Below, in pieces: positions 9,860 through 11,884 of a DNA stretch of 38,801 bases (its first letter is position 1; the number at the start of each line of letters is the position of its first letter). Location of the stretch: positions 1-38,801 of the forward strand of contig CAIJMU010000085.1 in assembly GCA_903821875.1 (NCBI GenBank), in the 5' to 3' direction. Source of the stretch: an uncultured Spirochaetota bacterium. GTDB taxonomy: Bacteria > Spirochaetota > Spirochaetia > Treponematales > Rectinemataceae. The notes under the pieces were generated by a model, which was not told where the DNA came from, did no database searches, and saw only the letters and a program-made list of their open reading frames with translations. The position numbers and the translations under genes were made by a program.

Positions 9860-10022
9860 GTGCCGCACTGTAGCAAAAGCTTCCTTTCGCTGCAATAAGG
9901 GATATGGTCCCCTGTTTTCCAAAGTACCGCTTGGTCTATACTCCGCGCCAGTCTTCGAGCGCCTTTCTCCCTTTCGAGCCGGGGCGGTGGCATCGCGGGC
10001 ATGCGCTCGCGTGGCACGGCAG

Positions 10023-10102
10023 GCCGCCCTACCGCAACCGGCGGCGGGGTAAAATCAGGGTTTTCGCGAGCTTCGCTCGCGTGCGGGATCCGGCTGAGCC
10101 GG
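10023..10102 (+). repeat. Paired structured element, copy A
   Basis: A 36-bp conserved block (10023-10058) agrees with copy B at 30 of 36 positions. It is followed by a 7-bp hairpin CGCGAGC-TTC-GCTCGCG (10065-10081) and a second hairpin CCGGC-TGA-GCCGG (10090-10102). The first stem is identical to that of copy B. The second has a different sequence but still pairs. It lies about 80 bp after a TATACT box. Confidence 0.7.
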
Positions 10103-10331
10103 TTTCTGCAGGAAATGGGTTTCGACTGGTGCTTTGCCCAAGGCTGCATTATCGTTCTCGCCACTATTGACAGGCCCTTCGACAAGATCAGCGGATCCTT
10201 TTCGGCTGGCCTTACAGCGCCCCTCTGCGGCGCCTGCTTCGGAATGCTCGGCCATATCCTTAAGCATCGCGTAAGCGCCGAGGATGAAGGGGCGCCCCCT
10301 CTGCCCCTATAAACTCAGCTCCCTCCCGCCA

Positions 10332-10337
10332 TATAAT
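10332..10337 (+). promoter_or_regulatory. Candidate -10 box for glyS
   Basis: A perfect TATAAT hexamer, but no recognisable -35 at the usual distance. It would give a leader of roughly 155-160 nt that contains structured element copy B. Confidence 0.45.
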
Positions 10338-10398
10338 CCTCTCCCAGCATCCGGACACGATCTTCCCCAGGGCCGGGGAGGGTTGCCATGCCCGGAAT

Positions 10399-10483
10399 GC
10401 CGCGCTGCCGCATCCGACGGTGGGGTGAAATCAGTAGGCCTTCGCGAGCGATGCTCGCGGCGTGGAATGCACAGCATTCTGCG
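10399..10483 (+). repeat. Paired structured element, copy B, in the probable glyS leader
   Basis: The conserved block lies at 10399-10434. It is followed by the hairpin CGCGAGC-GAT-GCTCGCG (10443-10459) and a second hairpin GAATGC-ACA-GCATTC (10465-10479), which extends to about 10 pairs (10461-10483) with two G-U pairs. The glyS Shine-Dalgarno sequence (GGAG, 10491-10494) begins eight bases after it, so folding could affect translation start. It may equally be a simple dispersed repeat. Confidence 0.7.
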
Positions 10484-10501
10484 GATTGAAGGAGATGTCG
10501 C

Positions 10502-11884
10502 ATGTCCGACACCGCAGCCAAACGTGAACCGAGCGCCCAGCGCGAGGTCTCCATGGAGAAAATCGTCTCCCTGGCCAAGCGCAGGGGCTTTGTTTTCCAG
10601 AGCTCCGAAATCTACGGAGGGCAGTCAGGGGCCTGGGACTACGGACCCATGGGCGTCGAGCTCAAGAACCGTATAGCCCGGGTCTGGTGGAAGGAGATGA
10701 CCCAGCTCCACGATGATATCGTCGGCCTGGACGCCGCCATCCTGATGCACCCCCGCACCTGGGAAGCCTCGGGGCACGTCGAAAACTTCACCGATCCCCT
10801 CGTGGACTGCAAGAAATGCAAACAGCGTTTCCGTGCCGACATGATCGACGAAGCCAAGCTCGCGAAAAAGGAATGCCCCGAGTGCGGGGGAGAGCTTACC
10901 GATACGCGCAAGTTCAATCTCATGTTCAAGACGAACATCGGGCCGGTGGACGACGGGGGAGGCATGATTTATCTTCGTCCAGAGACTGCCCAGGGCATCT
11001 ATGTCAACTACAAGAACATCGTGCAATCCAACCGCATGAAGATTCCCTTCGGCATCGCGCAGATCGGCAAGGCATTCAGGAATGAAATAGTTACGAAGAA
11101 CTTCATCTTCCGCACCTGCGAGTTCGAGCAGATGGACATGCAGTATTTCGTGAAGCCCGGCGATGACGACAAATTCTTCGCATATTGGCGGGAGCAGCGC
11201 TGGAACTACTTCGGCAAGCTCGGCGTCAAGATGGACAAGCTCCGCTGGCACCAGCACGGACCGGGAGAGCTCGCCCACTACGCCAAGGATGCCTACGACA
11301 TCGAGTACGAGTTCCCCATGGGCTGGAAGGAACTCGAGGGCGTGCACAACCGTTCCAATTATGACCTCAACAGGCACCAGGAATTCTCCGGGAAGGACCT
11401 CCAGTACATCGACCAGGACAACGGCAACGAGCGTTACATCCCCTTCATCATCGAAACCAGCGCTGGTCTTACCCGTCAGCTTCTCATGGTGCTCTGCGAC
11501 GCCTACGACGAGGAAAAGGTTGCCGACAAGGGCACTGAGGATGACTGGCGGACGGTGATGCGCTTCCATCCAAACGTGGCCCCGGTCACTGTCGCGGTCC
11601 TCCCCCTCATGAAGAAGGACGGGCTCGCGGAGCTGGCCCAGGGCATCAGGCAGGGCCTCAAGGAAGAGTATTCCACTGACTACGACCAGGCAGGAGCCAT
11701 CGGGCGCCGCTACCGCAGGCAGGACGAGATAGGGACACCCTTCTGCGTGACCATCGATTATCAGACCAAGGAAGACGGTACGGTGACGCTCCGTTTCCGC
11801 GACTCGATGGAGCAGGTGCGAGTGCACAAGGATGAACTGGAAGCAACGCTCAGGAAGTCGATAAAGGAATACAAAAGGGCATAA
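10502..11884 (+). CDS. glyS: Glycyl-tRNA synthetase, dimeric class II type
   Basis: A 460-residue enzyme that charges tRNA-Gly in the cytoplasm. It is the single-chain alpha2 type, unlike the alpha2beta2 GlyQ/GlyS of E. coli. Visible features are the 'RRGFVFQSSEIYGG' N-terminus with 'WDYGPMGVELK'; a zinc-ribbon-like insertion with CKKC at about 103 and CPEC at about 126; class II motif 2 'GKAFRNEI...FRTCEFEQMDMQYF'; and a C-terminal anticodon-binding domain ('VAPVTVAVLPLMKKDGLAELA', ending 'TVTLRFRDSMEQVRV'). The ATG has GGAG with a 7-base spacer. A tRNA-Gly gene lies about 8 kb upstream on the other strand. Structured element copy B occupies the likely leader. Confidence 0.97.
   Translation: MSDTAAKREPSAQREVSMEKIVSLAKRRGFVFQSSEIYGGQSGAWDYGPMGVELKNRIARVWWKEMTQLHDDIVGLDAAILMHPRTWEASGHVENFTDPLVDCKKCKQRFRADMIDEAKLAKKECPECGGELTDTRKFNLMFKTNIGPVDDGGGMIYLRPETAQGIYVNYKNIVQSNRMKIPFGIAQIGKAFRNEIVTKNFIFRTCEFEQMDMQYFVKPGDDDKFFAYWREQRWNYFGKLGVKMDKLRWHQHGPGELAHYAKDAYDIEYEFPMGWKELEGVHNRSNYDLNRHQEFSGKDLQYIDQDNGNERYIPFIIETSAGLTRQLLMVLCDAYDEEKVADKGTEDDWRTVMRFHPNVAPVTVAVLPLMKKDGLAELAQGIRQGLKEEYSTDYDQAGAIGRRYRRQDEIGTPFCVTIDYQTKEDGTVTLRFRDSMEQVRVHKDELEATLRKSIKEYKRA

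Follow-up and report, generated by a model that had tools for sequence, protein, structure and literature searches.

The window, i.e. the whole stretch of 38,801 nucleotides (nt) analysed here, is contig C85 from the draft genome (4.68 Mb) of an uncultured Spirochaetota bacterium, and the closest relatives of the glycyl-tRNA synthetase (GlyRS) encoded in it also come from uncultured Spirochaetota. Two related hairpin elements in the same orientation, copy A and copy B, precede its glyS gene. In a first-pass annotation they were read as a product of selection for RNA structure or, more simply, as members of a dispersed repeat family, which raises the question of what such an element does ahead of a synthetase gene. 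Comparison with related genomes showed that copy B belongs to a conserved structured glyS leader, new to Rfam. By analogy with a known operator, this leader is most likely a GlyRS-binding mimic of the tRNA-Gly anticodon loop, here called putative. The features of copy B and of glyS are given below.

10332..10337, + strand: -10-like box TATAAT, putative for the glyS transcript (from the sequence)
10347..10400, + strand: long bulged hairpin PA, outer stem GCATCCGG/CCGG-AATGC, apical stem CTTCCCC/GGGGAGG (from folding)
10370..10374, + strand: pseudoknot 5' strand GGGCC in the PA loop, covarying with 10437-10441
10405..10423, + strand: hairpin P1, stem CTGCCG/CGGTGG, loop CATCCGA (10411-10417), with UCC (10413-10415) at positions 34-36
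10427..10434, + strand: conserved linker GAAATCAG (from the alignment)
10437..10441, + strand: pseudoknot 3' strand GGCCU (from covariation)
10443..10483, + strand: variable spacer hairpins P2 (10443-10459) and P3 (10461-10483) (from folding)
10489..10494, + strand: Shine-Dalgarno site AAGGAG of glyS (from the sequence)
10502..11884, + strand: glyS, dimeric-type glycyl-tRNA synthetase with a C-terminal anticodon-binding domain (NCBIfam NF003211, E 6e-193; TIGR00389)
Residues 364-452 of the glyS product: PF03129

Distribution and architecture of the glyS leader

The element was found directly upstream of glyS, shortly past a TATAAT-like box, in 8 of the 80 glyS loci of relatives. We built a covariance model, named R1, from copy B and eight leaders from relatives. 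A search with R1 added glyS copies in four genomes (G029, G012, G024, G007), for a total of 13 genomes, of which ten belong to the family of the bacterium itself and the other three to a single genus of a second family. Apart from the genome of the window, 12 genomes each contained one strong match, directly upstream of glyS, and strong matches comprised glyS leaders only, including four (L124, L127, L128, L129) that were absent from the model. The tie to a translation gene suspected at first pass is thus borne out. No copy was found beyond the two families in a sample of 294 genomes from the order and 393 from the phylum. Weak R1 matches away from glyS (L131, L139, L140, L154-L156) were taken as chance, being coding-like or missing most of the core.

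Conservation and covariation are found in the long hairpin PA, in the pseudoknot and in the hairpin P1 with its NCC loop. Folding of single leaders agreed for L041, L042, L053 and copy B, and the other leaders were extended by eye. In PA, the outermost pairing is CCGG/CCGG or a replacement of it; inside it come GGGC/GCCC and then GCC/GGC, where three bases bulge out (CAU, AAU, CAC or AAC), and an apical stem caps the hairpin. Across leaders, the stems of PA swap sequence yet still pair (GGGC/GCCC, GAGC/GCTC, CGAC/GTCG). The PA loop (GAGCC, AGGCC, AGGUC, GGGCC) pairs with a segment past the conserved GAAAUCA (GGCUC, GGCCU, GACCU, GGCCC), and P1, with a stem of 6 base pairs (bp) and a loop of 7 nt, or 8 nt in three leaders, lies between the two pseudoknot strands. 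Over 14 copies, 69 of the 70 pseudoknot pairs are standard, with G-C/A-U exchange at three of the five positions, and permutation of the 3' strands gave P 2e-4, relatedness being uncorrected. These pairs were counted by script, because three rows of the MAFFT alignment had the pseudoknot strand one column out of place. Pairing between the GCC past the bulge and a GGGC past GAAAUCA had been considered, and was replaced by the pairing of the PA loop with GGCUC, which fits nearly all pairs. An ATG in PA and the ensuing frame are present in some leaders. A leader peptide was nevertheless rejected, as the frame differs among leaders, whose P1 loop lengths differ by one, and as one leader has ACG for ATG; conservation is therefore at the RNA level.

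Selection for RNA structure in the glyS leader, as proposed at first pass, is thus retained, whereas its location in a covarying second stem is not, this stem being a lineage-specific spacer hairpin. P2 and P3 lie past the conserved core, and since they vary in number and sequence and are missing in the shortest leaders (L047 and L124), we regard them as spacers. Perfect short-loop hairpins (GCTTCGC type) fill the interval between core and Shine-Dalgarno site in L128, in L053 and in the window (10065-10081 and 10443-10459); the number and sequence of the hairpins in this interval differ among genomes. Single-sequence folding compared with shuffles was unimpressive (z -1.4 and 0.1) and does not set the two copies apart from shuffled sequences, so that chance was excluded through the comparison with other genomes.

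The leader had no match in Rfam (Rfam 15) other than chance-level ones, in keeping with the first-pass statement that no known riboswitch or T-box was recognised. In particular, no T-box was detected at the gathering threshold or up to E 10 in the window region, nor up to E 5 in L053 and L041, and the glycine riboswitch model matched neither the window region nor these two leaders. A literature search, limited to one collection of papers, found no described glyS leader motif.

The P1 loop and its counterparts on other scaffolds

In the 13 clear P1 copies, the loop (UAUCCGU, CAGCCGG, UUGCCUU, UAACCGG, UUUCCGU, CAUCCGA and similar) always displays NCC at anticodon positions 34-36, as UCC in 7 cases, ACC in 4 and GCC in 2. 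Its two Cs are invariant in all 14 aligned copies, L042 included, and positions 32-34 and 38 are variable. In Bacteria, Eukarya and Archaea alike, C35 and C36 are the conserved bases of the anticodon that give tRNA-Gly its identity (PMC9976931). The anticodon loops of tRNA-Gly in the bacterium itself are CUUCCAA (gene at 2024-2096 of the window, minus strand) and UUGCCAA. The former gene, tRNA-Gly(UCC), lies about 8 kb from glyS.

The same loop bears on whether the leader could be of the T-box kind and read tRNA-Gly directly. Aminoacyl-tRNA synthetase genes are commonly controlled by T-boxes, and the element, like T-box leaders such as that of glyQS, would on our proposal control a gene for glycyl-tRNA synthetase from the leader. 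A T-box, however, pairs with the tRNA through a codon-like specifier (GGN), whereas the conserved loop here shows the anticodon sense NCC and is unable to pair with the anticodon of tRNA-Gly. As Rfam gave no T-box match even at E 10, we hold this explanation to be very improbable.

We also examined 65 glyS leaders without R1 for hairpins of at least 5 bp with a 7-nt loop. CC at loop positions 4-5, equivalent to 35-36, was found in 11 of them, against 1.1 expected from dinucleotide shuffles (60 rounds, none with more than 4) and 1.4 expected from other windows of the same loci. CC was the commonest dinucleotide at positions 4-5, and this register the commonest for CC. After clustering, 7 of 42 clusters had CC at 35-36, versus 0.5 expected, and one of the seven, L051, is doubtful, its hairpin being farther upstream. 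This first test is partly circular, because the idea arose from P1 and four leaders inspected by eye; L204, L210 and L211, from the collection described next, were unknown beforehand and conform to the NCC pattern. In the cluster of L059, L060 and L063, stem and loop have both been altered (ACACCAA, GUUCCAU), and of the loop CCA alone is kept; L059, with the ACACCAA loop, is the leader of Gracilinema caldarium, a relative in culture. These three leaders also have a second hairpin 3' of the NCC hairpin, with stem GCCGTCG/CGGCGGC and loop GCAGGAC, or stem GCGGTCG/CGGCCGC and loop ACAGGAT, and its loop retains a Shine-Dalgarno-like CAGGA.

A second collection consisted of 15 leaders without R1 from the second family, and partly overlaps the 65-leader set, some genomes being represented in both. 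Such a hairpin was present in the last 60 nt of 8 of these 15 leaders, and all eight, with no other variant, carried NCC (shuffles: mean 0.15, maximum 2), in each case as NCCA. The loops are GCUCCAU, GCGCCAU, GCGCCAC and ACGCCAC, and end 18-25 nt ahead of the start codon, and the stems are unlike yet pair (CCCCC, CTCCCGC, CCCCTC, CCCCCC, GCCTCC). More generally, the 7-nt NCC loops on other scaffolds are in most cases no more than about 50 nt away from the start codon. The glyS leaders L205, L208 and L209 share a conserved AGCACCCCGCAGCCTCCGATCCGGGGGGCCAGCGG with UCC within a 6-nt loop (GAUCCG), which is possibly a shortened mimic.

Another explanation is that the CC of the loop is an anti-Shine-Dalgarno sequence, the loop or hairpin masking GGAG and the leader acting as a plain translation damper or a thermosensor. 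The loop GCUCC of L046 and L204 is indeed complementary to GGAGC at the Shine-Dalgarno site, and the stem in L046/L200 extends into this site. However, G or A at position 34 breaks the match to GGAG in most other leaders, CC keeps its place at positions 4-5 of the 7-nt loop, and P1 is far from the site in most R1 leaders. We thus consider masking an improbable account of the loop.

A riboswitch-like leader, in which a small molecule, glycine or other, would be bound in the pseudoknot core and control glyS, with the NCC loop as part of the pocket or of a tertiary contact, is somewhat less improbable, although still unlikely. The compact pseudoknotted core, with its conserved unpaired GAAAUCA and conserved bulge, is riboswitch-like. 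Against it, the element occurs at glyS only, and never at genes of, for example, glycine transport or breakdown; the glycine riboswitch family is unmatched; and the NCC of 7-nt loops on other scaffolds is left unexplained.

Copy A and the surroundings of glyS

The leader element is flanked by a divergent acetate uptake transporter gene and by glyS. Between them, copy A precedes copy B, with the following features.

9197 to about 9860, minus strand: acetate uptake transporter gene (NCBIfam NF038013)
9937..9942, + strand: -10-like box TATACT of copy A (from the sequence)
9976..9980, + strand: pseudoknot 5' strand GAGCC, pairing with GGTTT at 10059-10063, two of the five pairs being G-U
10029..10047, + strand: hairpin P1, stem CTACCG/CGGCGG, loop CAACCGG, with ACC at positions 34-36
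10051..10063, + strand: linker AAAATCAG and pseudoknot 3' strand GGTTT (from the sequence)
10065..10110, + strand: spacer hairpins P2 (10065-10081) and P3 (10082-10110) (from folding)
10115..10312, + strand: remnant-like open reading frame past copy A, 65 amino acids (aa), with similarity to the C-terminal part of a membrane protein (147 aa) encoded on G000:C58

The likeness of the two copies described at first pass was confirmed: the 36-bp blocks at 10023-10058 and 10399-10434 are identical at 30 of 36 positions, and are followed by a shared 7-bp hairpin, CGCGAGC/GCTCGCG, with loop TTC (10065-10081) or GAT (10443-10459), then by a hairpin (10082-10110 and 10461-10483) whose stem sequence has changed with pairing kept. 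A -10-like box stands ahead of each copy, TATACT at 9937-9942 and TATAAT at 10332-10337, and a TATAAT/TATACT box is also present upstream of the element in relatives. The glyS leader would start about 7 nt past the TATAAT box; a strict sigma-70 scan reported no promoter, and the box is thus only a presumed one. The stretch had been described as gene-free, which is not wholly the case: 10115-10312 shows similarity to the C-terminal region of a membrane protein that is encoded on another contig of this genome (37% over 52 aa). It matched no Pfam family and is probably a gene remnant. The 147-aa protein itself is weakly MotA/ExbB-like, below the cut-off.

R1, built without copy A, scored it at 34.7 bits (E 1.5e-4 in the bacterium's own genome). 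P1 is intact in copy A, the linker has one change, and PA has an insertion of about 20 nt. This degenerate copy is the sole extra one that was found, and the sole one not directly ahead of glyS; most plainly, it is the whole leader in duplicate, since diverged, next to a gene remnant, and it is probably either decaying or an auxiliary binding site. In operators of the thrS type the dimeric enzyme recognises a second hairpin as well; no second conserved NCC hairpin was seen in the core here, and copies A and B together could provide two sites in this genome only.

Two copies close together, one of them degenerate and next to a gene remnant, are also what a dispersed repeat, or a functionless relic of a mobile element, might leave. 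At first pass this was the simpler alternative, but the distribution already contradicts it: a Blast search of the 4.68-Mb genome gave no third copy, and in the 12 other genomes the element occurs once per genome, always at glyS, with covarying pairs. We give this explanation practically no weight.

As a separate observation, ARAGORN identified a tRNA-SeC gene at 315-405 of L157, because of which selenocysteine is probably used in that genome.

A putative operator for GlyRS

The closest parallel is the thrS operator of E. coli, whose hairpins resemble an anticodon loop, and where a swap of the anticodon-like bases changes which enzyme regulates (PMC11088916). There, the enzyme prevents binding of the 30S subunit (PMC11088916, PMC3858243). 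Like it, the glyS leader precedes the gene of a class IIa synthetase and carries, upstream of the Shine-Dalgarno site, an anticodon-like loop with the cognate identity bases: its position, in the leader of the cognate synthetase gene, and the placing of these bases in the loop are those of a thrS-type operator. Blocking of the 30S subunit is predicted here as well. Unlike in thrS, the enzyme is GlyRS, the bases are CC, and the scaffold is a pseudoknot with a bulged hairpin, or a single hairpin just ahead of the Shine-Dalgarno site.

Two eukaryotic cases show that recognition of an anticodon mimic does occur. In yeast, HisRS represses the translation of its own mRNA by binding a hairpin there that resembles an anticodon, and uncharged tRNA relieves this repression (PMC6542539); that system, with a different enzyme, was established by experiment, whereas for the glyS leader we infer it. 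In type I picornaviruses, domain V of the internal ribosome entry site includes a mimic of the glycine anticodon stem-loop that is bound by human GlyRS, and a point mutation of the 'anticodon' abolishes binding (reviewed in PMC9778869). This mimic differs from the glyS leader in being viral and translation-activating and in addressing a eukaryotic enzyme, and no common descent is suggested.

We therefore consider it likely, although well short of certain, that the glyS leader serves as an operator, through which GlyRS would repress its own translation by way of an anticodon-arm mimic; binding of GlyRS to the NCC loop and repression of glyS are both proposed by analogy with thrS. Whenever there is more GlyRS than tRNA-Gly, the anticodon-binding domain of the enzyme would take hold of the P1 loop via C35 and C36, the pseudoknot locking P1 into a presentable shape, and the bound enzyme would hinder 30S binding at the glyS Shine-Dalgarno site. 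Free tRNA-Gly would then compete GlyRS off the leader and restore synthesis, as in E. coli thrS.

Several observations weigh against this proposal. At position 33 most of the mimics have A or C, in place of the U33 that is nearly universal in tRNAs; the P1 stem is one base pair longer than a tRNA anticodon stem; the P1 loop has 8 nt in three leaders; and L042 keeps CC, but outside a clean 7-nt loop. P1 lies at least 65 nt ahead of the Shine-Dalgarno site in several genomes, including that of the window, which makes direct blocking of the 30S subunit less obvious. Many other spirochaete glyS leaders are without any such hairpin. Finally, the permutation P value of the pseudoknot is only 0.014 once identical combinations are removed, kinship being uncorrected.

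Beyond the R1 families, we lean slightly towards the view that spirochaete glyS leaders form an undescribed and widespread class of synthetase-sensing RNA, in which the tRNA-Gly anticodon loop (NCC, often NCCA) would have been set time and again on scaffolds unrelated to one another: in two families on a pseudoknotted domain, in others on plain hairpins ahead of the Shine-Dalgarno site.

To our knowledge, E. coli thrS is essentially the one bacterial synthetase gene whose autoregulation through a tRNA-mimicking operator is known in detail, and the reviews cited here name no other bacterial case. If the above holds true, anticodon mimicry would be a recurrent route to synthetase autoregulation rather than an oddity of thrS. 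With a second enzyme, another phylum and several scaffolds sharing one anticodon loop, the generality of tRNA mimicry would become testable by comparison of leaders. The gain is a pseudoknot-containing family of structured RNA that Rfam 15 lacks, in which two Cs offer a clear target for mutation, and which suggests that GlyRS may sense its own surplus by seizing its own message.
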